From Bacteroides sp. (GTDB lineage: Bacteria; Bacteroidota; Bacteroidia; Bacteroidales; Bacteroidaceae): a stretch of 64,000 bases of DNA. Both the position numbers and the translations under genes were made by a program. Shown here piece by piece: positions 4,417-48,981 of this stretch; position 1 is the stretch's first letter, and every line of letters starts with the position of its first letter. Under the pieces are notes generated by a model, which was not told where the DNA came from, made no database searches, and saw nothing but the letters and a program-made list of their open reading frames with translations. The DNA is taken from contig JAFURM010000013.1 in NCBI GenBank assembly GCA_017471925.1, positions 21,887 to 85,886 of the forward strand, given 5' to 3'.

Positions 4417-4438
4417 TTCATCATTAAGCATTCCTACA

Positions 4439-6652
4439 ATGAACAAGCATAAACTTTTCGCTCTCCCCCTGCTGCTCATGGCAACAGTGTCGGGAGCAGA
4501 GGCACAGGAGATTACGGCACCGAGCGTGAAGACGCCGACCACCTTTGCCATCATCATAGACAGCAAGAGCTACGACAAGGCCCGCGAGGCCGTAGACGAA
4601 TACCGTCAGAGCGTGGAGGCCGACGGCCTGGGCACCTACCTGGCTGTGGACGACTGGAAGTCTCCGCAACCCATCCGTGAACTGCTGCAACAGTGGCACA
4701 ACGACAAGAAGGCTCCGTTGGAGGGTTGCGTGCTGGTGGGCGATGTGCCCATTGCCATGGTGCGCGATGCCCAACACTTCAGCTCGGCCTTCAAGATGGA
4801 CCAGGAGCACGACTGGAAGGAGAGCAGCATCCCCAGCGACCGCTACTACGATGACTTCGACCTGACCTTCGACTACCTGAAGCAGGACTCCACCATCGCG
4901 CTCTATCACTACTTCACCCTGCGCGCAGACTCCAAGCAATACCTCTCGCCCGACATCTACTCGGCACGCATCAAGCCGTTGGAACTGGAAGGCGTGGACA
5001 AGTATGAACTGCTGAGAAAGTTCCTGAAGAAGGCGGTTGCCCTGAAGAAGGAAGACGCCAACAACGTAGTGGACAAGCTGACCGTGGCACGCGGCAATGC
5101 CTACAACTCGGAAGACCAGGCCGCCTGGGCCGGTGAACAGCTGGCGTTGCGCGAACAGTTGCCGGCCATCTTCCTGCCGGGAGGTACAAGCAAGTTCCTG
5201 GACTTCGACTTTGCCGATGCCGTGAAGGGACTCTACCTGAACGAGGTGCAGGCACCGGGCCTGGACATCATGCTCTATCATCACCACGGCTCCGAGGAGC
5301 GTCAGTACCTGAACTCCTACCCCAAGAGCAACACGCTGAACAAGGGTATCGAAGGTGTGAAGTTCAACGCCCGCAGCGAGGTGTCCTACCTGAACCGTCG
5401 CCGCAAGATGAGCCGCGAGGCCGCTATCGACAGTGTGGCCCGCAGATACGGCATTCCCCGCGAGTGGTGTGCCAACACCTTTGATAAAGAGGTATGGGCA
5501 GCCGACTCCATCATTGACCGTGGCATGGACATCTACACTACCGACATCCACGGCCTGAAGCCGCAAGCCCGCTTCGTGCTGTTTGATGCCTGCTACAACG
5601 GCTCGTTCCACGTGAAGGACTATGTGGCCGGTGCCTACATCTTCAGCGAGGGACGCACGATAGCTACCATCGGATGTACCGTGAACACCATTCAGGACAA
5701 GTGGCCCGATGAGTTCTACGGCCTGATGGGAGCCGGTATGCGTGTGGGCCACGTGAACCGCATGAACTGCTTCCTGGAAAACCACATGAGCGGTGACCCC
5801 ACCTATCGTTTCGCCTCCAACGCCCCCTGCAAGTTCGACATCAACGAAGCCCTCGTGCTGAAGGCCGGCAACGCAGGCTTCTGGAAGAAGCAACTGAAGC
5901 ATGAGATGCCCGACGTGCAGGCACTGGCCCTGCGCCAGCTGAGCGATGCCGACTATCCCGGCTTGCCCGAACTGTTGGAGGAGACCTACTTCAGCTCTCC
6001 CTCCTTCATCGTGCGCCTGCAGGCCATGCGCTTGCTCTACCTGAACTATCCCGAGAAGTCAGAGCGTGTCATCACGGCGGCCATCAACGACGGTTATGAA
6101 CTGATTCGCCGCTTCGCTACGGAGTATTGCGAACTGCACGGCAGTCCCAAGTGTGCCGAGGCCCTCGTGAGTGCCTACCTGGAGCGTGGCACGGAGATGC
6201 GCATGAACTTCCGCGCCATCTCCGGTCTCGATGCCTTTGATGCCGAGGTGGTGAAAGACCTGGCCAAGAAGCTGAGCGAAGGCCGCGCGTTCTATGACCG
6301 CAAGTATATGGAGAAGCTGGAGAAGTCCCTGGAATATCCCGCAGAGGAGAAGGCCGAACGGGTGAAGCTCATCAACAGCTCCGACCCCAAGCGTTCACGG
6401 CTGAAACTGGCCGTACGCCGCTTCCGCAACGGTCCTTACACCTTCGGCATTGACCTGCTGACAAACTATGTGACCGACACCACCCGTCCCAAGGAAGTAC
6501 GTGTCATTGCAGCCGAAGCATTGGGATGGTATGGCGGACATTACCTGAAGCAGGACATTATTGACAAGCTCAACACCATCCGTGTGGCGGATTCCGATGT
6601 CCAGAACGAATTGACAAAGACGCTGAACCGCCTGACCGGAAAGAGAAGATAA
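4439..6652 (+). CDS. Secreted C25 (gingipain)-like protein with HEAT-like repeats, paralogue 3
   Basis: A 737-residue third copy with a signal peptide (cleavage near GAEAQ). It has VLVGDVPIAMV, IPSDRYYDD, HHHG (His283) and FDACYNGSF (Cys385), so the putative catalytic pair is conserved in all three copies, while the residues around the histidine differ (HAHG, HEHG, HHHG). The C-terminal 250 residues are HEAT-like helices. It is last in the run and is followed by a strong 20-bp hairpin at 6672-6721 that probably ends the transcript. Confidence 0.75.
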   Translation: MNKHKLFALPLLLMATVSGAEAQEITAPSVKTPTTFAIIIDSKSYDKAREAVDEYRQSVEADGLGTYLAVDDWKSPQPIRELLQQWHNDKKAPLEGCVLVGDVPIAMVRDAQHFSSAFKMDQEHDWKESSIPSDRYYDDFDLTFDYLKQDSTIALYHYFTLRADSKQYLSPDIYSARIKPLELEGVDKYELLRKFLKKAVALKKEDANNVVDKLTVARGNAYNSEDQAAWAGEQLALREQLPAIFLPGGTSKFLDFDFADAVKGLYLNEVQAPGLDIMLYHHHGSEERQYLNSYPKSNTLNKGIEGVKFNARSEVSYLNRRRKMSREAAIDSVARRYGIPREWCANTFDKEVWAADSIIDRGMDIYTTDIHGLKPQARFVLFDACYNGSFHVKDYVAGAYIFSEGRTIATIGCTVNTIQDKWPDEFYGLMGAGMRVGHVNRMNCFLENHMSGDPTYRFASNAPCKFDINEALVLKAGNAGFWKKQLKHEMPDVQALALRQLSDADYPGLPELLEETYFSSPSFIVRLQAMRLLYLNYPEKSERVITAAINDGYELIRRFATEYCELHGSPKCAEALVSAYLERGTEMRMNFRAISGLDAFDAEVVKDLAKKLSEGRAFYDRKYMEKLEKSLEYPAEEKAERVKLINSSDPKRSRLKLAVRRFRNGPYTFGIDLLTNYVTDTTRPKEVRVIAAEALGWYGGHYLKQDIIDKLNTIRVADSDVQNELTKTLNRLTGKRR

Positions 6653-6671
6653 GCATACCGGATACTGCAGA

Positions 6672-6721
6672 AACGCGGATTATCGCAGATTTACGCAAAG
6701 TAATCTGTGATAATCCGCGTT
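6672..6721. terminator. 20-bp hairpin, probable bidirectional terminator
   Basis: The arms 6672-6691 and 6702-6721 pair over 20 bp with one G-U pair and a 10-nt loop; the left arm begins AACGCGGATTATCGC. It lies between two convergent genes (the third C25-like gene and topA). There is no long T-run, only TTCTTGTTT on the right, so it may act as a barrier or as an mRNA 3'-end protector. Confidence 0.6.
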
Positions 6722-6750
6722 CTTGTTTGGCGGCCTTCCATGAGGCAGCC

Positions 6751-6852
6751 TCTGTGCGCCTCTATACGTCTGTGCTTTCGCCTCTATACGTGCAGCTCAT
6801 CACGTCTATACGCATGTCCCGTCACGTCTATACGTGTGCCTCTTTACACCTA
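6751..6852. repeat. Cluster of degenerate CTATACG repeats
   Basis: Within about 100 bp the motif CTATACG occurs four times, as CCTCTATACGTC, CCTCTATACGTG, CACGTCTATACGCA and CACGTCTATACGTG, followed by a CTATATATATAAG run. It is in the 307-bp gap between the third C25-like gene and topA, which otherwise holds only the hairpin and the 76-bp repeat. No gene is convincing here. Confidence 0.55.
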
Positions 6853-6873
6853 TATATATAAGCGTTCGTCCAT

Positions 6874-6949
6874 ACACGTGTGGTCCGTGGACGAGACGTG
6901 TATGGACGATGGACGAGACATGTGTGGTCCACGGACAACACATGTATGG
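6874..6949. repeat. 76-bp dispersed intergenic repeat, copy 1
   Basis: This starts ACACGTGTGGTCCGTGGACG and ends CACATGTATGG. It matches 51447-51522 over the whole 76 bp without gaps, with 9 mismatches by my count. It contains several near-palindromic ACACGTGT / ACATGTGT blocks and GGACGA units. It is just beyond the 3' end of topA. I do not recognise the family. Confidence 0.75.
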
Positions 6950-6959
6950 ACGAATGGGC

Positions 6960-9302
6960 TCACTTTCTTGCTCTGCTGCGCTTTGCAGGGGCTTTGGCCA
7001 CCTTCTCGCTTTGCAGCTTTACGAGGTCCATGCAGGACTGGTAGGTGAGGTCTTGGGGAACGATGTCTTTGGGTATCTTATAATTGTTGCCCTTGTAAGA
7101 GATGTAGGGGCCGAAACGACCGTTCATGATTTCCAGCTCGGCATCTTCGGCAAAGGTCTTCAAGTGGCGCTGTGCCTCGCTCTGCTGCTTCTCCCTAATC
7201 AGTCCGGCGGCTTCATCCAGCGTCAGCGTCAAGGGGTCTGCGCCCTTGGGCAGGGAGACATACATGCCGCTGAAGTAGATATAGGGGCCGAAGCGTCCGG
7301 CACCCACCGTCACCGTCTTGCCTTCATATTCGCCCAGGGTGCGGGGCAGCTTGAAGAGTTCGAGCACCTCCTCCAGGTTAACGGTCTCTATCGACATCTC
7401 CTTCTTCAGCTGTGCGAAGCGGGGTTTGTCCTTGTCATCGGCCGTGCCTATCTGGGCCACGGGACCGAAGCGACCGATTTTCACCGATACGGGCTTCCCG
7501 CTCACGGGGTCGGTACCCAGTACGCGCTCGCCGGCCTTGTGCTCGCTCTTGGTGGTGAGGGTCTTCTCCACAGAGGGGTGGAAGTCCTTGTAGAAGGTCT
7601 TCAGGGCCTCGGTCCAGGTCTCGTTGCCTTCGGCAATCTCGTCGAACTGCTTCTCCACGCTGGCCGTGAAGTTATAGTCCATGATGTTGGGGAAGTATTC
7701 CAGCAGGAAGTCGTTGACCACCGTACCGATGTCGGTGGGAATAAGCTTGTTCTTCTCGGCACCGCATACCTCCGTCTGCAGGCTGTCGCTGATGGTGCCT
7801 TCCTTCAGGGAGAGCACGTTGTAGGTGTGCTCTTCGCCGGGCTTGTCGCCCTTCTCCACATACTCACGCTGCTGGATGGTGGAGATGGTCGGTGCATAGG
7901 TAGAGGGTCGGCCGATGCCCAGTTCCTCCATCTTGCGCACCAGGCTGGCCTCGGTGTAGCGCGCGGGATGCTGGGTGAAACGCTCGGTGGCCGTAATCTC
8001 ACGCTGCTGCAACACCTGTCCCTTCTGCAAGGGGGGCAGCAGTCCGCTCTCGCTGTCCTGCTCCATGTCTTCGTCATAGGACTCACGGTAGACGCGCAGG
8101 AAGCCGTCGAACTTCACCACTTCGCCCGTAGCCGTGAAGGTGTCGGCAGAGGTGCCCACGTTGATGGTCACCGTGGTCTTCTCCACCTCGGCGTCGGCCA
8201 TCTGTGAAGCGATGGTGCGCTTCCAGATGAGGTCGTAGAGGCGGCGTTCCTGAGCGGTGCCTTCAATCTTGGCATTCTCCATGTAGGTGGGGCGTATGGC
8301 TTCGTGCGCCTCCTGTGCTCCCTTCGTCTTGGTGGCAAAGTGGCGTGTCTTGACGTATTTCTCTCCCATCAGGTTGGTGATGGCCTCCTTGCTGCCCTGG
8401 AGGGCGAACTGTGAGAGGTTCACCGAGTCGGTACGCATGTAGGTAATCTTTCCCGATTCGTAGAGGCGCTGGGCCAGCATCATGGTCTGGGCCACGGTGA
8501 AGCCCAGTTTGCGTGCGGCCTCCTGCTGCAGGGTGGAGGTGGTAAAGGGGGCGGCGGGCGTCTTCTTCAGCGGACGGGTCGTGATGTCGCTGATGGCAAA
8601 GTCGGCCGTACGGCAGCTCTCCAGGAATTGTCGGGCCTCGGCCTTCGTCTTGAGACGACGGGCCAGCTCGGCCTTCAGCTCCACGGGCTTGCCGTCAGCG
8701 TCGGGCACCAGGAAGAGGGCGGTCACCCGATAGGACATCTCGCTATGGAAGTTGGCAATCTCGCGCTCGCGCTCCACGATGAGGCGCACGGCCACAGACT
8801 GCACACGTCCGGCCGAGAGGGCGGGCTTCACCTTTTTCCACAACACGGGCGAGAGTTCGAAACCCACGATGCGGTCCAGCATGCGGCGGGCCTGCTGGGC
8901 ATCCACCAGGTTGATATCGATGGCCCGCGGCTGCTCGATGGCCCGCAGGATGGCGCTCTTGGTGATTTCATGGAACACGATGCGTTTGGTGTTCTCGGGC
9001 TTCAGCTTCAGCACCTCATACAGGTGCCAGGCGATGGCCTCTCCTTCACGGTCCTCATCGGAAGCCAGCCACACGGTCTCGGCACTCTTGGCCTCCTCCT
9101 TCAGCTCGGACACCACTTTCCGCTTGTCGGCCGGAATCTCATAGTCCGGCTTGAAGTCCTGCTCTATGTCGATACTGAATTCTTTCTTCTTCAAGTCTCG
9201 GATGTGCCCATAGCTGGAGAGCACTTTATAATCCTTCCCTAAAAACTTCTCGATGGTTTTGGCTTTGGCCGGTGACTCAACGATTACAAGGTTCTTTTGC
9301 AT
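6960..9302 (-). CDS. topA: DNA topoisomerase I
   Basis: A 780-residue type IA topoisomerase that relaxes negative supercoils in the cytoplasm. The N-terminus has the Toprim signature (LVIVESPAKAKTIEKFLG, then ASDEDREGEAIAWHL). The active-site tyrosine is in the block GKITYMRTDSVNLS, and AGRVQSVAVRLIVERE marks domain IV. The C-terminus carries several degenerate zinc-finger-like modules of the form GRFGPYI (three or more copies) without clear Cys tetrads, as is usual in Bacteroidetes, and a basic tail KRSRARK. A -7 element lies about 45 bp upstream. It is transcribed alone, away from the outer-membrane gene behind it. Confidence 0.97.
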   Translation of the reverse strand: MQKNLVIVESPAKAKTIEKFLGKDYKVLSSYGHIRDLKKKEFSIDIEQDFKPDYEIPADKRKVVSELKEEAKSAETVWLASDEDREGEAIAWHLYEVLKLKPENTKRIVFHEITKSAILRAIEQPRAIDINLVDAQQARRMLDRIVGFELSPVLWKKVKPALSAGRVQSVAVRLIVEREREIANFHSEMSYRVTALFLVPDADGKPVELKAELARRLKTKAEARQFLESCRTADFAISDITTRPLKKTPAAPFTTSTLQQEAARKLGFTVAQTMMLAQRLYESGKITYMRTDSVNLSQFALQGSKEAITNLMGEKYVKTRHFATKTKGAQEAHEAIRPTYMENAKIEGTAQERRLYDLIWKRTIASQMADAEVEKTTVTINVGTSADTFTATGEVVKFDGFLRVYRESYDEDMEQDSESGLLPPLQKGQVLQQREITATERFTQHPARYTEASLVRKMEELGIGRPSTYAPTISTIQQREYVEKGDKPGEEHTYNVLSLKEGTISDSLQTEVCGAEKNKLIPTDIGTVVNDFLLEYFPNIMDYNFTASVEKQFDEIAEGNETWTEALKTFYKDFHPSVEKTLTTKSEHKAGERVLGTDPVSGKPVSVKIGRFGPVAQIGTADDKDKPRFAQLKKEMSIETVNLEEVLELFKLPRTLGEYEGKTVTVGAGRFGPYIYFSGMYVSLPKGADPLTLTLDEAAGLIREKQQSEAQRHLKTFAEDAELEIMNGRFGPYISYKGNNYKIPKDIVPQDLTYQSCMDLVKLQSEKVAKAPAKRSRARK

Positions 9303-40593: not shown

Positions 40594-41298
40594 TTATACG
40601 GCCAGCAGCAGTCCCACGCCGCGCAGCGTCTTGAGTTCTATCGTCTGGTCCGTCTTCAGCATCTTGCGCAGATTGCTGATGAATACGTCCAGGCTTCGCG
40701 AGGCAAAGTAGTCGTCCTCGGTGTCCCAGAATCGGCTGAGGATGGCTTCACGTTTCACCACGTTGTTCTTGTTCTCCACTAACAGTTGCAGGATGCCGGC
40801 CTCTCTCACGGTCAACACCTTGCTCTCGTTGGAGTGTTCATTCCGCAGCGTGGCATGCTGTGCGTCAAGGGTGAAACTCCCGAACTTATAGCAGCAAGCC
40901 TCGCTTCTCGACTTCTCCCCCTGCTTCATTTTCAGTATGGCCCGTATGTGGGCGTCTATCTCATCGGGCACGAAGGGTTTCTTCACGTAGTTGTTGGCGC
41001 CCATCTTGTAGCCGCCGGTCACATCCTTGGGAGTGGTCAGTGCCGATGCAAAGAGGATGGGCGTATCTCCGTCCGTTTCGCGGATGCGTTCCACCATTTG
41101 CAGACCGTTCATTACCGGCATGTCCACGTCCGATATGATGATGTCGGGCTTACATTTCTTGTAGGCTTCCAGTCCCTCCTTCCCGTTTTCCGCAGTAGTC
41201 ACCTGATACCCTCCGATAATGTCTTCCAGACAACTCTGAAGGATATAACGCAAGTTGGCGTCATCTTCTACTAATAACAATTTAATAATCTTTTCCAT
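40594..41298 (-). CDS. OmpR-family response regulator
   Basis: A 234-residue regulator: receiver domain with acidic pocket ED (residues 11-12), phospho-acceptor Asp57 in IIISDVDMPVMNG and lysine in NYVKKPF, then a C-terminal winged helix (VLTVREAGILQLLVENKNNVV and FISNLRKMLKTD). OmpR-type domains usually bind direct repeats 10-11 bp apart, exactly the pattern of the TAAC operators at 42640, 42879, 44841 and 48305. The start codon overlaps the kinase stop (TAATG). Its base composition is like the host core, unlike the A+T-rich kinase gene. Confidence 0.93.
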   Translation of the reverse strand: MEKIIKLLLVEDDANLRYILQSCLEDIIGGYQVTTAENGKEGLEAYKKCKPDIIISDVDMPVMNGLQMVERIRETDGDTPILFASALTTPKDVTGGYKMGANNYVKKPFVPDEIDAHIRAILKMKQGEKSRSEACCYKFGSFTLDAQHATLRNEHSNESKVLTVREAGILQLLVENKNNVVKREAILSRFWDTEDDYFASRSLDVFISNLRKMLKTDQTIELKTLRGVGLLLAV

Positions 41299-42626
41299 TA
41301 GACTTGTGGTAAAAATATTGTGAATTCAGTAAATTCTCCTTCTACGCTGTTTACGACAATGTTGCCGTTATGAGCGGAAATGGCTTGATATACAAAGTTT
41401 AGTCCAAGTCCAAAGCCTGTAGCTCCTCCTTTTCGACTACGCTTACTGGCATCACCTCTTTCGAACTTTTCAAAAATGGAAGAGAGATGTTTAGGCGCAA
41501 TACCTAATCCATTATCGCATACTTTGATTATATTACGTCCTGTAGTATCTATAGCAGAACTGATTTTGATGTTGACTTCTTTGTTGGAGTATTTTATAGA
41601 ATTATCAAGCAAATTATATAATACTTCTTTTAATAGTTCTTCATCCGCATATACTGTAGCACTTTGTAAATCGACAGTGAAACTTATATTCTTTTCTATT
41701 TGAGTACTAAACTTGTTTGTTAGTCGATTGATGATCGGTTCCAATGAAACAGGCTTACGATCTATGTCTAATTTGTGACTTTCTAATTTGGAAATTGTAA
41801 GTATCCTGCTACTCAATGCGAGTAATTGTTCCAGTTCGTTTTCTGCAATCTCAATATATTTACTTTTGATTTGTGGATTTTTGTCTAGACGTCCAGTACG
41901 TATGAGATTTAACGTGGTCATTATACTGGTTAAAGGACTTTTCATGTCGTGAATCATGGCATAAGAAAAATCTTCGCGAATCGTGGCTATTTTATTCTGT
42001 AGAATGATAATCTTGATTTGATGATAAATACAACTTGCTACGAATATGATGATAATCAAAGTTGAAATGAGTATTAATCCCATCCGTTTGATTATTATGC
42101 TGTGTGGACTACATAGAATTATTTGTATTCCATCGGACATGTCAACCCTTGTTGTGACTATTTCCGACTCAATAGTGTCCCATTTGGAAAACTTAAGTGC
42201 TTTGCTGTTTTTGTGGACTTTAAGTGTACGCGGATTAATCATTCGGAGAAAGTATTGACTTTGAATGTTCTTGCTCGCTAATAAAACTCCTGTGATAGAA
42301 TCAATACGCTCTAACGAGGGAAGTCCCATTTGGTATAATCCGTCATAGAGATATGTGTATTCTGAGATTGAGTCATTAGTACAGGTCGCTACTATTCTCG
42401 TCCCGATTTCTGCGGTGTCAGGTAACTCGGGCATGATATAGTTAGCAATAAAATCAGCCTCTTTGTACAAAGCTTCTTCTAATATGTTGCTACATTCTTT
42501 TCTAAGGTCATTCCTTATTAATGTAAAGGTGTTGTATAGCCAAATGCCTTGCAATATAAAAATGGCCATTATGGCTAATACAGTAAGCCATTTTATTCTT
42601 CCTATTTTCTTATTAAGCTGTTTCAT
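41298..42626 (-). CDS. Sensor histidine kinase
   Basis: A 442-residue membrane kinase. Two membrane helices (residues 15-35, and about 182-200, LILISTLIIIIFVASCIY) enclose a periplasmic sensor of about 145 residues. His226 in YAMIHDMKSPLTS is the phosphorylated residue; the ATP site has NLLDNSIKYSNKE, VCDNGLGIAP and ATGFGLGLNFV. It is A+T-rich, like the peptide genes upstream and unlike the response regulator. A TATATTTGC box on the minus strand at 42630-42638 is so close to the ATG that the mRNA may be nearly leaderless. Confidence 0.93.
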   Translation of the reverse strand: MKQLNKKIGRIKWLTVLAIMAIFILQGIWLYNTFTLIRNDLRKECSNILEEALYKEADFIANYIMPELPDTAEIGTRIVATCTNDSISEYTYLYDGLYQMGLPSLERIDSITGVLLASKNIQSQYFLRMINPRTLKVHKNSKALKFSKWDTIESEIVTTRVDMSDGIQIILCSPHSIIIKRMGLILISTLIIIIFVASCIYHQIKIIILQNKIATIREDFSYAMIHDMKSPLTSIMTTLNLIRTGRLDKNPQIKSKYIEIAENELEQLLALSSRILTISKLESHKLDIDRKPVSLEPIINRLTNKFSTQIEKNISFTVDLQSATVYADEELLKEVLYNLLDNSIKYSNKEVNIKISSAIDTTGRNIIKVCDNGLGIAPKHLSSIFEKFERGDASKRSRKGGATGFGLGLNFVYQAISAHNGNIVVNSVEGEFTEFTIFLPQV

Positions 42627-42629
42627 GCT

Positions 42630-42638
42630 GCAAATATA
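42630..42638 (-). promoter_or_regulatory. Possible promoter of the kinase/regulator operon (-7 box)
   Basis: The minus strand reads TATATTTGC (TAnnTTTG) only 3 nt before the kinase start codon. The TAAC repeats of operator A lie where the -33 element would be. Confidence 0.4.
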
Positions 42639-42639
42639 A

Positions 42640-42706
42640 TAACATTATGATAAAGTAGGATAACGTTATGATAACATTTTATTCGAAAAACCTTAAATAA
42701 CTTTGC
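42640..42706 (+). promoter_or_regulatory. Operator A with promoter of the 43-aa peptide gene
   Basis: TAAC/TAAA units start at 42640, 42651, 42661 and 42672, the last two in the same register as the three other operators (11 bp apart, same distance to the -7 box). The -7 box is TAACTTTGC at 42698-42706. TAACGTTA at 42661 is palindromic, so the site could also serve the divergent kinase gene. Confidence 0.75.
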
Positions 42707-42757
42707 ACCGTCATTTAAAACTAAGGAGAAAAGTTATAATTTAAAATTTAGTATATA

Positions 42758-42889
42758 ATGGAAAAGGTTGTAGTAGAACTTACTTTGCAAGAGCAAAAGT
42801 GTATTTATGGTGGTGCCTATGTTTTTGTGTATATTGGGAATAAATGGGTCTGGTTAAAAGCAGATGCAGCTAAGGTGCAATTAACGTAA
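42758..42889 (+). CDS. 43-residue double-glycine leader peptide (candidate secreted peptide)
   Basis: A 43-codon gene. The leader MEKVVVELTLQEQKCIYGG (residues 1-19) has the ELxxxE(x)3-5GG shape of peptides cut by C39 ABC exporters. The predicted mature part is 24 residues, starting AYVFVYIGNKWVWL and ending KVQLT, with two tryptophans and a basic, aromatic character. It sits directly behind operator A, and operator B overlaps its last codons and stop. Its exporter is encoded at 46122. Not a known family to me; could be a bacteriocin or a signal peptide. Confidence 0.75.
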   Translation: MEKVVVELTLQEQKCIYGGAYVFVYIGNKWVWLKADAAKVQLT

Positions 42890-42938
42890 AGATAACGTTG
42901 TGATAACATAAGGCCTCATAAACTCCCTTTAACTTTGC
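42879..42938 (+). promoter_or_regulatory. Operator B with promoter of the second peptide/lipoprotein operon
   Basis: TAAC at 42882, 42893 and 42904 (exactly 11 bp apart), then a 22-bp gap and the -7 box TAACTTTGC at 42930-42938. It overlaps the stop codon of the 43-aa peptide gene. Confidence 0.8.
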
Positions 42939-42997
42939 AGCATCAAAAAACGAAAGTAGTATTGAAATTAATGTATTAACCCTTAAAAGAAAAGATT

Positions 42998-43036
42998 ATG
43001 AGAATAAGAGAAGGTCCTATTGGACATGTTTACTGA
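42998..43036 (+). CDS. Very short ORF (12 residues) in the operon leader
   Basis: ATG at 42998 opens MRIREGPIGHVY and stops at 43036. It is preceded by AAAAGAAAAG and starts about 55 nt after the predicted transcript start of operator B. It might be a leader peptide or an exported peptide without a leader. An overlapping 17-codon ORF begins at 43026. Support is weak: position and context only. Confidence 0.3.
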   Translation: MRIREGPIGHVY

Positions 43037-43114
43037 GACATTGACCAGCCAAGGTCTAAATATGGCAATTGCGAACTAATTAAAGCAACAACTTAATTTT
43101 AAAACAACAACATT

Positions 43115-43303
43115 ATGAACAGAAATTATTTTTATGAAGAACTCAGCGAGAAAGAAATGAAAGTGGTAAATGGCGGTAGCTTTGAAGAGTTTATGTTTTT
43201 CTTCAGCTCTAATTTCCACATACATGTTATACAGCCAGCGCCGGGCACTTGCTCGTGTGTGCCTTTGGATTCAATAACCAATACATCTCTTGAAAGATAT
43301 TGA
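43115..43303 (+). CDS. 62-residue double-glycine leader peptide (candidate secreted peptide)
   Basis: The leader MNRNYFYEELSEKEMKVVNGG (cut after Gly21) is a textbook C39-processed leader: ELSEKEM then VVNGG. The predicted mature part is 41 residues, beginning SFEEFMFFFSSNFHIHVIQP and containing a CSC pair (PGTCSCVP) that could form a ring or disulfide. It is in the transcript from operator B, ahead of the lipoprotein and small membrane protein that may be its immunity or receptor partners. Confidence 0.8.
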   Translation: MNRNYFYEELSEKEMKVVNGGSFEEFMFFFSSNFHIHVIQPAPGTCSCVPLDSITNTSLERY

Positions 43304-43330
43304 GTTCTTTTTGTATTATTCTTTATTAAA

Positions 43331-43372
43331 GGAAGGGGACGTCCCCTCGAATTGAGCTTGTCGTCCTCTTCC
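43331..43372 (+). other. Alternative hairpins between the peptide and lipoprotein genes
   Basis: GGAAGGGGACG (43331-43341) can pair with CGTCCTCTTCC (43362-43372), or locally as the palindrome GGGGACGTCCCC (43335-43346). No T-run follows. It may set the ratio of peptide to downstream expression. Confidence 0.45.
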
Positions 43373-43397
43373 AAACTTTAAATAACAAATGATTATT

Positions 43398-44051
43398 ATG
43401 AATACGAAATTATTTAATCTGCTTACAGTTTCAATATTGACTGCATTCTTTTGCCTGAGTTGTGACAATAGTGAAAATGTAGAGAAGATGGATGTCGTTT
43501 CTTGTCAAGATTTATACGGACAGTATCAAACAGTTCTTGTTGAAAGCGAGTCTTTTGGCGATTTGAATGAAAAGAAAAGCTTTATTGCTTCCCAAATTAA
43601 AGATTATGATTGGAATTGTGTGGCGACAACCCGTAGTTTGTTGAATTTGTCGGAAGAAGAACAGCAGGAGGAACTGAAAACTCTGCTTTCTCCTTATACA
43701 GTAAAGTGGATAGAGAAAATTGAGAATAGTTTCGTTTCCGATTCTCGGATTATGGTGGAGCAGATTTCATTAGATAATGTGTTGACCGATGATGAAAAAC
43801 GTATTCTTGTGACGCTTCTGGCCGGAGGTGACTATTTGAAGTCGAAAATAGTCAAGCTTAATACGAGAGGAGCAGCGGATTGTTATGCAAAATATCAAAG
43901 CGATTGTAATAGGGCACTACAGGTATATGCAATCAGTGGTAGTGTCGGTGCTATTAGCGCTGGTCCTGTTGGACTTGCTGCAGCTACTGCTATTTGTGCA
44001 CTGCAATTGCAATGGGCAGAAGATGACTATAATAACTGTCTAAAAGGTTAA
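43398..44051 (+). CDS. Putative lipoprotein in the peptide operon
   Basis: A 217-residue protein (ATG at 43398; an ATG three codons earlier is open too). The signal peptide ends in the lipobox-like FFCLSC, so Cys22 of the shorter form is probably lipidated. The middle is charged and helical. The last 60 residues stand out: a Gly/Ala-rich hydrophobic stretch (SGSVGAISAGPVGLAAATAI) flanked by four cysteines (two before, one in it, one after). It could be an immunity protein, a surface receptor, or itself a toxin. No family recognised. Confidence 0.65.
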   Translation: MNTKLFNLLTVSILTAFFCLSCDNSENVEKMDVVSCQDLYGQYQTVLVESESFGDLNEKKSFIASQIKDYDWNCVATTRSLLNLSEEEQQEELKTLLSPYTVKWIEKIENSFVSDSRIMVEQISLDNVLTDDEKRILVTLLAGGDYLKSKIVKLNTRGAADCYAKYQSDCNRALQVYAISGSVGAISAGPVGLAAATAICALQLQWAEDDYNNCLKG

Positions 44052-44063
44052 AAGGTGAATATT

Positions 44064-44369
44064 ATGAAAATCAGTTTCAAAGATCGATGTGGCTATAAGA
44101 AAGGTAATAGGGAACGTCCCTATTACCTTGTGATAGCTAATATTTTTGTCTATTCTATGTTGGCTTTTATCCTGTCGAATAGGTTGCTTCCTGGATATGT
44201 TCAGACGTTTGAGATTTTTATGTCGGTGTCAGGTTTGGCACTCGTTGCCTATTGTTTGGAAGAGGCACGTCGGGAATATGTGTGTGCTAAGGTACTCAAT
44301 CTAACTTCGTGCCTATATGCTCTCTTCTATATTGCAGCACTAATTTTACTTCCGCGACTTGTGGGATAA
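44064..44369 (+). CDS. Small polytopic membrane protein, possible immunity protein
   Basis: A 101-residue protein from the ATG at 44064 (a GTG at 44055 is also open). Three membrane helices: LVIANIFVYSMLAFIL, FEIFMSVSGLALVAYCL and SCLYALFYIAALILLP. It starts 12 nt after the lipoprotein gene. Position and size resemble bacteriocin immunity proteins, but sequence alone does not show this. A 13-bp hairpin (44101-44129) lies inside its first 25 codons. Confidence 0.65.
   Translation: MKISFKDRCGYKKGNRERPYYLVIANIFVYSMLAFILSNRLLPGYVQTFEIFMSVSGLALVAYCLEEARREYVCAKVLNLTSCLYALFYIAALILLPRLVG
44101..44129 (+). other. 13-bp perfect hairpin inside a coding region
   Basis: AAGGTAATAGGGA (44101-44113), loop ACG, and TCCCTATTACCTT (44117-44129). 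It falls just before the first membrane helix of the small membrane protein. Confidence 0.55.
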
Positions 44370-44401
44370 GTGTTAACTAAATAAAAACGGGAAGGCCGAC
44401 G

Positions 44402-44433
44402 TTTGTGGATGTATCCAATAAGTTTACCTTTGT
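44402..44433 (+). promoter_or_regulatory. Housekeeping promoter of the 43-residue coiled-coil/TM protein
   Basis: TTTG (44402-44405), 19 bp, TACCTTTGT (44425-44433). It has no TAAC repeats, unlike the other promoters of the locus. Confidence 0.7.
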
Positions 44434-44471
44434 GGCGATAAATAGATTTACTAACCACAAAATGATGTATT

Positions 44472-44603
44472 ATGAAAGAAGAAAAGAAAGAAATCGAACA
44501 GCAACTCAGAGAGGAAATTAAGCATCTGAAACGTGAACAACGGTTTTTGCTTGTTTTTGTTGTGGCGACTCTTGTTATTCAACTCTACAACGCAATTGCC
44601 TGA
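44472..44603 (+). CDS. 43-residue charged-helix plus membrane-helix protein
   Basis: Begins MKEEKKEIEQQLREEIKHLK (charged, coiled-coil-like) and ends with one membrane helix (FLLVFVVATLVIQLYNAIA). It has its own consensus promoter and a terminator behind it (44631-44666), so it is an independent one-gene unit inside the peptide locus. No double-glycine leader. Function unknown; it could be a constitutive immunity or regulatory partner. Confidence 0.6.
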   Translation: MKEEKKEIEQQLREEIKHLKREQRFLLVFVVATLVIQLYNAIA

Positions 44604-44630
44604 TATTTCCTCTGGATACATTTAGAGTTT

Positions 44631-44666
44631 AAGCCCCGAAAGGATGAATGTCTTTTCGGGGTTTTC
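44631..44666 (+). terminator. Terminator after the small membrane gene
   Basis: CCCCGAAA (44634-44641) pairs with TTTCGGGG (44654-44661), followed by TTTTC. The 336-bp gap 44604-44939 holds this terminator and operator C and no convincing gene. Confidence 0.75.
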
Positions 44667-44840
44667 TCTTGCCATAATCTTCGTTTGCTTCTCTTGCGAT
44701 GGAGTGTTAATAGATGTGTATCGCGGTCTCTTTGTTTTACATGACAATCCCCACTCTCCTCCAAAACTTCCGTCTTGGCCTCTATTCTGCAGGCAAAAAG
44801 TTCCCTCTGTGCATATAGTGATGAACGCTATCCACTGCCT

Positions 44841-44900
44841 CGTTAACGTAAAGATAACGTTGCGTTAACCTAACGTCTGTCGCCTGCCCGTTACTTTTGC
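44841..44900 (+). promoter_or_regulatory. Operator C with promoter of the exporter operon
   Basis: TAAC at 44844, 44855 and 44866 (11 bp apart), then the -7 box TACTTTTGC at 44892-44900. Spacing to the -7 box is the same as in operators B and D. Confidence 0.8.
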
Positions 44901-44939
44901 AACGTGAATAATGAGTATCAACATTAAAACAGAAAAAAG

Positions 44940-46109
44940 ATGTTATTATCGGATGAATGGATAGAAAACAGCATTGAGACCTATATCTATCAACACACAA
45001 CCAAGTCCCAGATGATTTATTGGGCGGTCTTATTGGCCGTTACAGCAACGCTTGTATCGCTTCCTTTTATTCATGTGGATATCTCGGTGAGAGGTTCGGG
45101 GGTGGTCAGGCCGGTGGCCGAGAAGGCTGAAATCACGTCGCCTATAGCCGAGACGGTGGATTCGGTGTTTGTACGCGAAGGCGAGCAGGTGCGCAAGGGA
45201 GATGCCATTCTGAAGTTCAGAACCAACAATCCCGACTATAAGATTCATTATCATTCGGGACGACTGAACGATTGTAGTGCACAATTGGCAGACTTGTCTT
45301 ATTTGGCCCAAGGAGAGTGCCCCGAGAAATTCAGTTCTCCTGTCCGCCGACAGGAATATGTCTATTTCGTCAAGCGGAGAAAGGAACTGGAGACAGCCTT
45401 GGCACAGGCGGAAAAGGAGTATGACCGTCACAAGGCCTTGTATGACAAACAGGTTATTTCAGAAGAAGAGTATGAGACCTATCTCTTTAAGCTACAGAAG
45501 CAACAGAATGAACTCGCCTCATTGATACAGAGCCAACTCAGCAGCTGGCAGGCCGATTTGAACAGCTGTCGGAATACGTATAGTGAGATGAATGCCAGCC
45601 TGAAGCAGGAAGTGAGAGAGAGGGAGATGTATGTGGTGCGTAGTCCGGTAGACGGAACGGTGGACCAGTTTTCGGGTGTCTATCGCGGCAGCAATATTCA
45701 GGCGGGGCAGACGTTGGCTGTGATAAGCCCGGATTCTACATTGTGCCTGGAGGTGTATGTCACTCCTCGCAATATAGGTTTTATCACGACAGAGATGCCG
45801 GTAAAGGTGCAGGTGGAATCCTTTAATTATAACGAATGGGGAAGTCTCATGGGAAGGGTGAAGGAGGTCTCTTCGGATTTCATGACCGATAGTCAGGGAA
45901 ATGCTTTCTATAGAGTGAGGTGTGAAGTGGAGCGTGACTATCTGCAATTGAAGAACGGGAGGATAGGACGGCTGAAAAAGGGTATGACGGCCGCTGTGCA
46001 TTTCATGGTAACACGCCGTTCCCTCTTCGACTTGCTTTACCAGAAGATGGACAGCTGGATGAATCCCAACCAATATGTCAATGAGAAAATGATTGCTAAG
46101 TTGAACTGA
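44940..46109 (+). CDS. HlyD-family periplasmic adaptor of a peptide exporter
   Basis: A 389-residue membrane-fusion protein. One N-terminal membrane helix (MIYWAVLLAVTATLVSLPF), a lipoyl-like half (GVVRPVAEKAEITSPIAETV, VREGEQVRKGDAILKF), a long coiled coil (about residues 115-225) and the second lipoyl half (YVVRSPVDGTVDQFSG). It should link the ABC exporter 12 nt downstream to an outer-membrane channel. Driven by operator C. Confidence 0.92.
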   Translation: MLLSDEWIENSIETYIYQHTTKSQMIYWAVLLAVTATLVSLPFIHVDISVRGSGVVRPVAEKAEITSPIAETVDSVFVREGEQVRKGDAILKFRTNNPDYKIHYHSGRLNDCSAQLADLSYLAQGECPEKFSSPVRRQEYVYFVKRRKELETALAQAEKEYDRHKALYDKQVISEEEYETYLFKLQKQQNELASLIQSQLSSWQADLNSCRNTYSEMNASLKQEVREREMYVVRSPVDGTVDQFSGVYRGSNIQAGQTLAVISPDSTLCLEVYVTPRNIGFITTEMPVKVQVESFNYNEWGSLMGRVKEVSSDFMTDSQGNAFYRVRCEVERDYLQLKNGRIGRLKKGMTAAVHFMVTRRSLFDLLYQKMDSWMNPNQYVNEKMIAKLN

Positions 46110-46121
46110 AATAAATAGAAG

Positions 46122-48290
46122 ATGATGTACAAGAGAAACATTAAAATCAAGCAGCATGACACAACCGATTGTGGGGCTGCATGTCTGGCTTCCGTGTGTG
46201 CCTATCATGGATTGCAATTCCCGGTGGCACGCATCCGGCAATATGCCTATACCGACCAAAAGGGAACTAACGTTTTGGGACTGATAGAAGCCGCCAGTAA
46301 ACTGGGCCTATCGGCCAAGGGAGTGAAGGCCAAACTGGAAGCTTTGCCAATGATTCCATTGCCATCCATTGCCCATGTGGTTGTGGGTGGCCACCTACAA
46401 CATTTTGTCGTGATTTATCGGGTAGGGAAAACGAAAATCACCTATATGGATCCGGCAGACGGACGGATGCATCGGGTGACGATGGAAGACTTCCAGCGGA
46501 TGTGGACAGGCGTCCTGGTGTTGATGGAACCCGAAGAAACATTCAGAAAGGGAAACCAAAAGACGAGTATGACCAAAAAGTTCCTTGCCCTGCTGGCTCC
46601 TCATAAATGTGTGATGACGCAGGCCATATTCGGTGCATTGATATACAGTGTTCTCGGATTGTCCACTTCGGTCTATGTGGGTAAGATAACGGACTATGTG
46701 CTGGTGGATGGCAATATCAACCTGCTCAACCTGATGGGGATAGTGATGTTGCTCATCCTGGTGTTGCGCACCTTCATTGGGGCCATGAAAAGCATATTGG
46801 CCTTGAAGACCGGACAGCGGATAGATGCGGCATTGATATTGGGTTACTATAAACATCTGTTGAGGCTTCCCCAGCAGTTCTTCGATACGATGCGGGTGGG
46901 TGAGATTATATCGCGCGTGAATGATGCCGTAAAGATTCGTCACTTCATTAATAATGTTTCACTCGATTTGGTGGTGAACCTGATGATGCTGCTGTTCTCG
47001 GTCTGCCTGATGTTTGTCTATTCATGGGAACTGGCTCTGATTACTTTGGCTTCTGCTCCGTTGTTCCTTCTTATTTTCAGAGGGTTCAACAAGCAGAACA
47101 AGAAGTATCAGCGAAGCATCATGGAGAGTAGCGCCGACCTGGAATCACAGTTGGTGGAGTCGATTAATAACATAACGACCATCAAGCGTTTCGGTATAGA
47201 GGAAGTGGCAGACTTGAAGACCGAGAAGCGTTTTGTCCTTCTGTTGAAGAATACGTTCCGCAGCATCTATGCCTCCATCATGGTACAAGGAGGAATACAG
47301 TTTATTTCAATGGCCATTACGATAGCCGTCTTGTGGGTGGGCAGCATGATGGTGGTGGACCAGGAACTTACTCCCGGCACATTGATGGTGTTCTATTCGT
47401 TGATAGGCTATGTCATATCACCGATAGGCTCATTGATTTCTTCCAATCAGACCATTCAGGATGCGCTGATTGCAGCAGACCGCCTTTTCCAGATTATGGA
47501 TCTGGAACGTGAAGAGGATGATACCCAAAAGATTGTCCTGACTCCGGAAATGGTGGGGGATATCTCCTTTGAACATGTCTCTTTCCGTTATGGTACGCGC
47601 CGGGAAGTCTTCAGGGACTTGAACCTGAAGATTGAGCAGGGTAAGAAAACGGTGATTCTCGGTGAGAGCGGTTCAGGAAAGACTACACTCGTTTCATTGC
47701 TCCAGCATATTTATCCCATCCAGTCGGGACGCATCCGAATAGGGGATTATGACATTGCGCAGATTGACAACAAGAGCTTGCGCAGACGGGTAAGTACGGT
47801 GCCGCAACAGATTGAGCTGTTTGCCGGTACGATTATTGAGAATATTGCGGTGGGAGACCTGCACCCCGATATAAAACGCATATCCGACCTGATTGACCAA
47901 CTCGGCCTGAGACCTTTTGTAGAACGTCTGCACGATGGATTGTTGACTCATATCGGTGAACATGGAGCCTCTCTTTCGGGTGGTGAAAAGCAAAGGATTG
48001 CCATAGCAAGGGCACTCTACAAGCAACCGGATATTCTCATTTTTGATGAAGCGACCTCTTCATTGGATTCCTTGTCTGAACGTTATGTGAAGCAGGCTTT
48101 GGAGGCTTTGCTTAAAGAGGGGAAGACCATTATAGTGATAGCCCATCGGCTGAGTACTGCAAAAGATGCCGATAAGATTGTAGTGCTTGATAAAGGACGG
48201 CTGGTAGAGACCGGCAATCACCGTGATTTGTACAATGCCGGCGGGAAGTATTACCTTTTCTGGAACGAACAGTTTGAAATGTTTGAATAA
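46122..48290 (+). CDS. Peptidase-containing ABC exporter (C39 type)
   Basis: A 722-residue exporter. The N-terminal C39 protease cuts after Gly-Gly: Gln11, Cys17 (DTTDCGAACLASV), His94 (LQHFVVIY) and Asp110 (MDPADG) form the active site. A six-helix transmembrane domain follows (about residues 165-450). The ATPase has Walker A GESGSGKTT (514-522), signature LSGGEKQR (about 617) and Walker B LIFDEATSSLD (about 640). It would cleave and export the peptides at 42758 and 43115. Cotranscribed with the HlyD gene. Confidence 0.95.
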   Translation: MMYKRNIKIKQHDTTDCGAACLASVCAYHGLQFPVARIRQYAYTDQKGTNVLGLIEAASKLGLSAKGVKAKLEALPMIPLPSIAHVVVGGHLQHFVVIYRVGKTKITYMDPADGRMHRVTMEDFQRMWTGVLVLMEPEETFRKGNQKTSMTKKFLALLAPHKCVMTQAIFGALIYSVLGLSTSVYVGKITDYVLVDGNINLLNLMGIVMLLILVLRTFIGAMKSILALKTGQRIDAALILGYYKHLLRLPQQFFDTMRVGEIISRVNDAVKIRHFINNVSLDLVVNLMMLLFSVCLMFVYSWELALITLASAPLFLLIFRGFNKQNKKYQRSIMESSADLESQLVESINNITTIKRFGIEEVADLKTEKRFVLLLKNTFRSIYASIMVQGGIQFISMAITIAVLWVGSMMVVDQELTPGTLMVFYSLIGYVISPIGSLISSNQTIQDALIAADRLFQIMDLEREEDDTQKIVLTPEMVGDISFEHVSFRYGTRREVFRDLNLKIEQGKKTVILGESGSGKTTLVSLLQHIYPIQSGRIRIGDYDIAQIDNKSLRRRVSTVPQQIELFAGTIIENIAVGDLHPDIKRISDLIDQLGLRPFVERLHDGLLTHIGEHGASLSGGEKQRIAIARALYKQPDILIFDEATSSLDSLSERYVKQALEALLKEGKTIIVIAHRLSTAKDADKIVVLDKGRLVETGNHRDLYNAGGKYYLFWNEQFEMFE

Positions 48291-48304
48291 TGGAGACGGA
48301 TATT

Positions 48305-48364
48305 CGTTAACCTAAAGATAACGTAGCGTTAACCTAATGGGTGGATAGCATCCCGTAACTTTGC
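48305..48364 (+). promoter_or_regulatory. Operator D with promoter of the DUF3836 gene
   Basis: TAAC at 48308, 48319 and 48330 (11 bp apart), then the -7 box TAACTTTGC at 48356-48364. Over its first 30 bp it is nearly identical to operator C. Confidence 0.8.
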
Positions 48365-48408
48365 ATCAGAAAAAGAAACATAATATAAACCATTAAAAAC
48401 TTGAATGT

Positions 48409-48912
48409 ATGAAACTGATTACAGCAACAACCATCTTTTTTATGACGATGAGCCTTCCGAAGACTGCAACAGAGTTTGCCTACAACGTGGAAATGACCAA
48501 TGAGAATGTTACTTCACAACTGGTGTATAAGAAAAGTGCGGATGGTCGCTACCTGTCTCATCACCTGAAGTATAACTTTACGTATGATGAGCAGGAACGT
48601 CTGGTGCGGAAAGAGGTCCTGAAATGGAACGGTGCCTTGGGCAATTGGGAACGTAGCTATTGCCTGGATTATTCTTATGACGCTTGTGGATACTCCGTTG
48701 AATATGTCATGTGGAATGCCGAGAAAGAGACTTATGCTTATGCCGTGGCCAAGCAGGTCTATGACGAAAGCTTGGAGGGTAGCGTGACAATGGCTTCGTA
48801 TCGCAAGGATAGAAGCAATGGAGAATGGGTGGTCGAAAACAGAACTGTGATGCTGAAACCCGATGCCACGCTTCTTGCTGCACAGGAAGCGGATATTATA
48901 AATTCTCTCTAA
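48409..48912 (+). CDS. DUF3836 family secreted protein
   Basis: A 167-residue protein with a short signal sequence (KLITATTIFFMTMSLPKTATEF) and the DUF3836 pattern of YKKSADGRYLSHHLKYNFTY, then YD-type repeats (WERSYCLDYSYDACGYSVEY). The family is Bacteroides-specific and of unknown function. Having operator D ties it to the peptide/exporter regulon. Followed by a hairpin at 48919-48956. Confidence 0.8.
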   Translation: MKLITATTIFFMTMSLPKTATEFAYNVEMTNENVTSQLVYKKSADGRYLSHHLKYNFTYDEQERLVRKEVLKWNGALGNWERSYCLDYSYDACGYSVEYVMWNAEKETYAYAVAKQVYDESLEGSVTMASYRKDRSNGEWVVENRTVMLKPDATLLAAQEADIINSL

Positions 48913-48918
48913 CAATCA

Positions 48919-48956
48919 AGCCCCGAAAAAGACAAATGCTCTTTTCGGGGCTTTCT
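48919..48956 (+). terminator. Terminator after the DUF3836 gene
   Basis: AAGCCCCGAAAA (48919-48930) pairs perfectly with TTTTCGGGGCTT (48942-48953). It lies between convergent genes. The core matches the terminator at 44631. Confidence 0.75.
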
Positions 48957-48981
48957 CGTTTATGCTGTCGCCTCCCTCTCA

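Follow-up and report, generated by a model that had tools for sequence, protein, structure and literature searches.

Organization of the locus

The 64,000-nt stretch of Bacteroides sp. contig JAFURM010000013.1 analysed here (the window) belongs to a 2.87-Mb genome that is 89% complete, and its positions 40594-48912 hold a locus that combines a two-component system, two double-glycine peptide genes (pepA and pepB), a peptide exporter, and a gene for a DUF3836 protein. An earlier sequence-only reading had placed a regulator, a kinase, two double-glycine peptides, a lipoprotein, an HlyD protein, a C39 exporter and a DUF3836 protein here, and the list of open reading frames (ORFs) together with family profiles recovered all of them in place.

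The OmpR-type response regulator (RR; 40594..41298, minus strand) matches the Pfam families Response_reg (93 bits) and Trans_reg_C (58 bits). It falls outside the RprXY system, its best NCBIfam match being RprY with 189.1 bits against a cut-off of 370. The sensor histidine kinase (HK; 41298..42626, minus strand; HisKA and HATPase_c), the candidate receptor, retains the H-box, N-box, G1 and G2 motifs. Two transmembrane (TM) helices, seen by eye, go with a PDC/PAS-like ectodomain of approximately residues 33-180 (DNA 42087-42530). A profile of this ectodomain found nothing better than E 0.1 in the PDB, and fold matches were middling only.

Divergent from the kinase lies pepA (42758..42889, plus strand), which encodes a 43-aa double-glycine precursor and candidate pheromone recognized by its position and leader. 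Cleavage after ..CIYGG would remove the leader MEKVVVELTLQEQKCIYGG and release a 24-aa core of 2784 Da when unmodified; neither Pfam nor NCBIfam gave a match. The second precursor, pepB (43115..43303, plus strand; 62 aa), would be cut after ..KVVNGG to a 41-aa core of 4700 Da, and it passes the TIGR01847 'bacteriocin_sig' profile narrowly (16.8 vs 15.7 bits, E 0.0075). Both core lengths agree with the 24 and 41 residues predicted earlier. On the same strand follow a 220-aa lipoprotein-like protein (43389..44051) with a hydrophobic stretch near its C-terminus and no Pfam match over cut-off, a three-helix membrane protein with an ATG start (44064..44369; helices by eye, no Pfam or NCBIfam family over cut-off) that is possibly an immunity protein, and a 43-aa ORF with a coiled coil and a TM helix by eye (44472..44603). 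The last of these has a 41% identical homolog in L006 (Phocaeicola sartorii) and is also found in L008 (tblastn E 1.9e-4). The lipoprotein-like and small membrane genes are candidate immunity or accessory genes.

The export machinery consists of an HlyD-type periplasmic adaptor (44940..46109, plus strand; HlyD_3 63 bits, TIGR01843 160 bits and below the cut-off of 209) and a C39 peptidase-containing ABC exporter (PCAT; 46122..48290, plus strand) with the Peptidase_C39, ABC_membrane and ABC_tran domains. The exporter is narrowly over the TIGR01193 'peptide cleavage/export ABC transporter' cut-off (525.4 vs 523.85 bits), and a residue check located the C39 residues Q11, C17, H94 and D110 as well as Walker A and B, the signature and the H-loop, confirming the complete protease and ATPase motifs claimed for it. 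A second C39 ABC exporter of the same genome (G000:C11, L072) is 28% identical and has a cysteine-rich double-glycine candidate peptide nearby (594-809). The locus ends with the DUF3836 gene (48409..48912, plus strand), the sole copy found in the genome, whose product is over the PF12930 gathering cut-off and is assigned to the DUF3836 fold.

A common operator with a fixed promoter geometry

Three TAAC direct repeats with 11-bp spacing (TAACN7TAACN7TAAC) precede pepB (42882..42907), hlyD (44844..44869) and the DUF3836 gene (48308..48333), all located on the plus strand by a pattern scan. The exact operator occurs three times in the whole genome, each time within the locus, and a reversed-pattern control gave no match; the common operators noticed in the sequence-only reading are thereby borne out. 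When one mismatch was allowed, the window contained six matches against a shuffle mean of 0.07, namely the three exact sites, two of the same sites on the other strand, and one shifted overlap. The operator before pepA (42651..42675, plus strand) has the degenerate form TAAAGTAGGA-TAACGTTATGA-TAAC.

The -7 and -33 elements are promoter elements of Bacteroides. A -7 element of the type TAnnTTTG stands at a +30 offset in all four promoters of the window, the one before pepA (TAACTTTG, 42698-42705, plus strand) having been counted by hand. The TTTG lies exactly 30 bases past the start of the third TAAC in 64 of 68 exact operators from 28 stretches, comprising the window and relatives with an exporter or a pepA; the remaining four have no -7 element within 60 bases, and none of the 68 has one at another offset (background 0.00057 per base). 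The duplicates L006, L044, L074, L076 and L090, as well as all stretches with a pepA-less kinase and no exporter, were excluded from this count, and the near-copies L007, L008 and L089 remain in it. The spacing is apparently the geometry of an activator site in place of the -33 element. Since the operator and the fixed -7 offset are shared by the four promoters, we regard them as one regulon, and because OmpR-type regulators bind direct repeats, the RR of the locus is presumably the protein that binds the operator.

Generic promoter and terminator scans stayed at or below shuffle level. By eye, we noticed two similar stem-loops (..CCCCGAAA..TTTTCGGGG..) that are likely terminators, one past the 43-aa ORF (44634-44665) and one past the DUF3836 gene (48921-48958); the terminator scan lists parts of the second only. 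Also by eye, a 12-codon ORF, MRIREGPIGHVY (42999-43037), is found between the pepB operator and pepB and could encode a leader peptide or be due to chance.

Distribution of the locus in Bacteroides and Phocaeicola

Close homologs of the exporter (E <= 1e-150) were present in 8 of 61 presumed Phocaeicola genomes and in 16 of 158 presumed Bacteroides genomes, including the window's own; each species was represented by a single genome. Plasmid copies of the locus were considered and discarded, as a plasmid collection gave no match. The arrangement of RR-HK, divergent pepA, hlyD and C39 recurs in both genera; between pepA and hlyD there is usually a variable row of double-glycine peptides and small membrane proteins, TolC and DUF3836 genes often follow C39, and most units carry the operator. 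The locus maps (loci designated L, genomes G) were seen whole except for L057-L064, and the exact operator was absent from L052, L054, L055, L081, L083, L085 and L086. The RR is 63-72% identical in the closer exporter loci and 50-56% in more distant ones.

We found pepA in 20 of the 24 exporter genomes. It stands divergent beside the kinase in 16 of the 17 genomes that have kinase and exporter on one stretch, and three further genomes (G232, G267 and G432, the last with a shortened kinase) have pepA with the kinase on a different contig. G257 (L087) carries it between two operators, at the place predicted from the layout. The four exporter genomes in which pepA was not found are G342, which has three kinase-like genes and no intact hlyD seen; G323, with TolC in two pieces and no kinase at E <= 1e-75; G374, likewise without a kinase at this threshold; and G409, where the contig ends 55 bp from the kinase. 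In addition, five genomes that lack an exporter match of this kind have pepA adjoining the kinase (G149, G135, G327, G294 and G259). Separately, L089 (6496-6594) and L006 (1884-1982) contain a second pepA-like gene without an adjoining kinase, perhaps a remnant of an older cassette.

Outside this family, 20 of 343 other genomes have an exporter relative at E <= 1e-150. Stretches were fetched for 12 of them, two of which (L151 and L161) are shorter than 5 kb. The exact operator is absent from all 12, plausible double-glycine peptides are present in at least six (L151, L152, L155, L156, L158 and L159), an HK/RR pair is in reach only in L157 (27-32% identical), and L153 has a lone 947-aa HK-like protein (28% identical). 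Within this sample, the coupled form looks limited to Bacteroidaceae.

The two peptides fared differently in the comparison. A plain tblastn search at E <= 1e-3 gave no relative for either pepA or pepB in the compared loci. The position and leader of pepA are nevertheless kept, being matched by at least 22 further kinase-adjacent peptides, whereas pepB shares neither and is kept just as one among several double-glycine peptides. The refuting condition named in the sequence-only reading, a lack of conservation of the peptide ORFs, thus receives a mixed answer. The 22 distinct pepA leaders mostly have L at position -12 (21 leaders), E at -8 (20), I at -4 (18), and Y or F at -3 (17). Core length ranges from 19 to 34 aa, and 19 of the 22 distinct cores are no longer than 25 aa. 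A strand-turn-strand pattern, written after the cores had been seen, fits 16 of 22 (shuffle mean 3.3, maximum 10 in 2000 shuffles); it also fits 4 of 15 hand-chosen other double-glycine peptides and is therefore enriched, not exclusive. Twelve pattern matches had been removed from the set by hand, 11 as chance ORFs and L022 for its 25-aa peptide, and L021, a near-copy of L023, was missed by the filter. With its fixed position beside the kinase and its shared leader, pepA is apparently a class of its own, and pepB is best read as a bacteriocin-like effector from the variable downstream set. The sequence-only reading had peptide export by the C39 transporter under the kinase and regulator, which the sequence supports well. 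As a refinement, the two peptides are not equivalent: pepA is the candidate ligand and pepB one of a variable set.

The lipoprotein, the three-helix protein and DUF3836 are without known function, which would leave room for a locus directed, through its double-glycine peptides, at envelope physiology or the animal host instead of at inter-bacterial competition or signalling. This we hold to be very improbable: several downstream peptides of the relatives have, by eye, glycine-rich hydrophobic stretches like those of class II bacteriocins and stand beside small membrane proteins, and their variability fits arms-race genes. As a side observation, L042 contains, among its peptide genes, two 302-aa ORFs with the same start (4144-5052 and 6174-7082) that look transposase-like by eye and may drive cassette turnover.

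The DUF3836 gene is present as stated in the earlier reading and is not peculiar to this locus. A full operator lies at most 160 bp upstream of 16 of 18 DUF3836-like genes, against 55 of 1093 ORFs of at least 150 aa, a figure from loci fetched for their kinase or exporter and not a genome-wide rate. DUF3836 is thus, to judge by its upstream sequences, a recurrent, general output gene of this regulator family. The entry titles of the structures BVU_1206 (4r8o) and BDI_3222 (4r03) give no function, the term was not found in the open-licence literature searched, and the link to the operator comes from the present analysis.

Joint replacement of pepA and the kinase sensor half in relatives

The argument that pepA is the ligand of the adjoining kinase comes from comparisons between closely related loci. 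In three species (L049, L088 and L040), DNA identity is 87-97% in the RR, 95-96% in the kinase domain and 91-96% in the peptide gene next to pepA, compared with 52-61% in the sensor half with its TM helices and 47-56% in pepA. Sliding windows place the drop at about kinase residues 200-220 (L049 numbering; IREDF motif at 210); identity is mostly 20-68% across the sensor half, the intergenic region and pepA, rises above 90% again at the next peptide, and past that peptide L049 diverges again from L088 and L040. A second trio behaves likewise, as L051 differs from L080 and L084 in the sensor (54-56%) and pepA (48-49%) and agrees in the kinase (91%) and RR (86-94%); L080 and L084 agree throughout (81-89%). 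A cross-case is provided by L018 (= L049), the kinase domain of which is 97% identical to L011 and L126 and only 64% to L102 (= L003). Its sensor is nearer to L102 (55%) than to L011 and L126 (32-38%), and so is its core (DNSYKW.. and DKSYDW..).

Joint variation of pheromone and receptor is known from the pherotypes of the Com, Blp and Agr systems. The exchange of pepA and the sensor half between conserved flanks is therefore the signature of a pheromone-receptor specificity cassette, and we take pepA to be the probable ligand because the two change together, as in those pherotypes. The window's pair lies outside the two trios. The low G+C content from HK through the three-helix gene (34-39%, with 48% in the exporter, 53% in the RR and 55% in the window) fits an exchanged module, but here the kinase domain is AT-rich as well.

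Taken together, we consider it probable that the locus is a self-induced peptide-signalling and peptide-export system, with pepA as the exported autoinducing pheromone and pepB as the effector. Once translated, pepA would be cut at the double glycine and exported by the C39 exporter and HlyD through an outer-membrane channel encoded elsewhere. The mature peptide of about 24 aa would bind the periplasmic ectodomain of the adjoining kinase, which would phosphorylate the OmpR-type regulator. The phosphorylated regulator would then bind the three 11-bp TAAC repeats and activate four promoters, those of pepA, of pepB with the accessory genes, of hlyD-C39 and of DUF3836, so that positive feedback on pepA would result. 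In this scheme pepB would serve as a bacteriocin-like effector, the small membrane and lipoprotein genes as candidate immunity or accessory functions, and DUF3836 as a general output.

Any direct contact between pepA and the kinase, activating or inhibitory, would be consistent with the position of pepA and its change together with the sensor. One could thus imagine pepA as a reporter of export flux or a feedback signal, where unexported or exported pepA represses a kinase that gauges exporter activity rather than population density. We judge this quite improbable, since tripartite export favours an outside signal and known systems of such a layout activate.

Kinases without pepA and the weight of the covariation

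Several observations weigh against pepA as an autoinducing pheromone. Most broadly, of the 69 distinct kinases related to this one, 46 have no detectable pepA, which rules out the simple expectation that every such kinase is accompanied by one; in four of the 46 the available upstream sequence is under 430 bp, and L022 carries a shortened pepA of 25 aa. Kinases with and without pepA are intermixed in the tree and share sensors. The pepA-less L017, L131 and L132 have sensors 88% identical to that of the pepA-type L018 from another species, with kinase domains at 63-64%; L124 shares 88% of its sensor with L125 and L126, likewise from other species, and 61% of its kinase domain; L107 has a sensor 76% identical to that of L019; and L014 resembles L015 over its whole length, with 85% identity in the sensor and 98% in the kinase, and has lost pepA or never had it. 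The ectodomain may therefore sense something else, or pepA may be dispensable. Of 12 genomes searched for the L018 peptide, one contained it, namely its own; weak matches in G253, G254 and G255 (E 0.15-1.3) are chance-like, and the search could overlook a short, diverged copy.

Covariation statistics, computed for 21 of 22 pairs (L113 with its shortened HK was left out, and the later-found L087 is not included), point in several directions. The partial Pearson Mantel correlation of core and sensor given the kinase is 0.37 (p 0.0005). On the opposing side, the rank Mantel test of core against sensor was null (rho 0.02, p 0.37), the core-kinase correlation is weakly positive (0.14, p 0.04; 0.19, p 0.006 when given the sensor), and leaders track sensors (0.47, p 0.0005) above the level of the cores, so that common ancestry of the segment may account for much of the signal. 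L118 and L120 likewise have sensors that are 74-75% similar and cores that differ. That core and sensor distances simply covary in rank is hence not supported, and the case rests on the two locus-level swaps; we give the locus comparison more weight because the cores are short and divergent, and the null stands. Three further points concern the window itself. The operator of its pepA is the degenerate one. Its kinase-pepA pair has no close relative, the best sensor being 52% identical, and how this pair behaves is therefore predicted from the family, the swap having been seen in the relatives. Finally, no TolC-like gene is present in the locus, unlike in many relatives, and the channel across the outer membrane has to be encoded in another part of the genome, where the closest match to the TolC of a relative has 40% identity and is on another contig.

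The pepA-less kinases, the mixed tree and the null rank test would also suit a kinase that senses an external cue, such as envelope stress or an antimicrobial peptide of host or foreign origin, with pepA as one more exported bacteriocin-like peptide and the operators switching on a weapon set. In line with this, several pepA-less kinases stand beside operator-bearing DUF3836 genes (four tested, all over cut-off) or an ABC ATPase under the same operator, which in L048 follows two proteins without a Pfam match. The divergent placement of pepA next to the kinase in exporter loci, and its replacement jointly with the sensor half while the neighbouring peptide stays nearly identical, make an external cue unlikely in our view. 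As an observation on its own, L041, L045, L046 and L048 join the same regulator family and operator to ABC ATPase genes, with DUF3836-like genes in L041 and L045; they form a second locus type in which no convincing double-glycine peptide was seen beside the kinase.

If pepA is the pheromone, the pepA-less kinases with 88% shared sensors are possibly receivers or eavesdroppers, or they may respond to some other, common cue. Extending this, Bacteroides and Phocaeicola might run a peptide-pheromone network of exchangeable pherotype cassettes, with sensor modules also passed on to kinases that have no pheromone gene; such receiver-only kinases would act on DUF3836 and ABC transporter genes via the same operator and allow cells to hear the signals of other species and prepare defence. 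We put this forward tentatively, as an idea with well under an even chance of being correct.

Comparison with known systems

To our knowledge, no peptide pheromone with a kinase receptor has been described for Bacteroidota, and the pheromone-kinase pair would, if confirmed, be new for this bacterial group. It would provide a defined, testable signal for asking how bacteriocin production is coordinated by Bacteroides species and how these distinguish kin from rivals, approximately 20 natural signal/receptor pairs, and a ready reporter promoter in the operator and -7 element; the DUF3836 family, for which structures have been solved, would gain its first regulatory context. A search of the open-licence literature, judged by titles and the starts of abstracts, found no system of this kind described before; near prior work includes, from the part of it available, a survey of bacteriocins in gut genomes (PMC4573289).

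The bacteroidetocins are Bacteroides peptide toxins from a region that, like the present locus, has a peptidase/transporter gene; in the accessible portion of the report this region comprises four genes, with a membrane protein and a thiol oxidoreductase flanking the peptide gene (PMC6671954). The text of that paper contains neither 'two-component' nor 'histidine kinase', and, unlike the bacteroidetocin region, the ten proteins tested here do not include a thiol oxidoreductase. Bacteroidales clusters for ribosomally synthesized and post-translationally modified peptides (RiPPs) share a PCAT and GG-motif precursors with our locus, some together with membrane fusion and outer-membrane genes, and one of them, BGC5, has an HK and an RR without a transporter, as far as the excerpts of that study extend (PMC10352776). 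They differ in having radical SAM, YcaO, LanC or LanM enzymes, and the same excerpts describe no pheromone regulation for them (PMC10352776). Pfam and NCBIfam found no peptide-modifying enzyme among the ten proteins of 40594-48912, which sets the locus apart from RiPP clusters. Colicin V type export, unlike the locus, is not known to involve two-component regulation or a pheromone gene. It resembles the locus in its PCAT and membrane fusion protein with TolC encoded elsewhere, according to the section available (PMC10352776).

The closest parallel is with streptococcal ComCDE/BlpCHR and with plantaricin-type three-component bacteriocin regulation. There, as here, a double-glycine gene stands beside a kinase and a regulator, although its role as a pheromone is for our locus a prediction. 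ComCDE/BlpCHR further resemble the locus in that a C39 exporter and an accessory protein belong to the regulon, repeat operators precede each target operon, variable double-glycine peptides are accompanied by small membrane proteins, and the pheromone and the sensor half change together, as pepA and the sensor half do in the two trios of relatives. The differences lie in the signalling proteins and the setting. ComDE/BlpHR use a polytopic HPK10 kinase and a LytTR regulator, whereas the locus has a HisKA kinase with a periplasmic PDC-like ectodomain and an OmpR-type Trans_reg_C regulator; moreover, export here would cross two membranes, DUF3836 is a target, and the hosts are Bacteroides and Phocaeicola. 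Because its regulator is OmpR-type and its kinase HisKA, the locus is not a member of the ComCDE/Blp family, and the best reading of its sequence is that it works like ComCDE/Blp quorum sensing.

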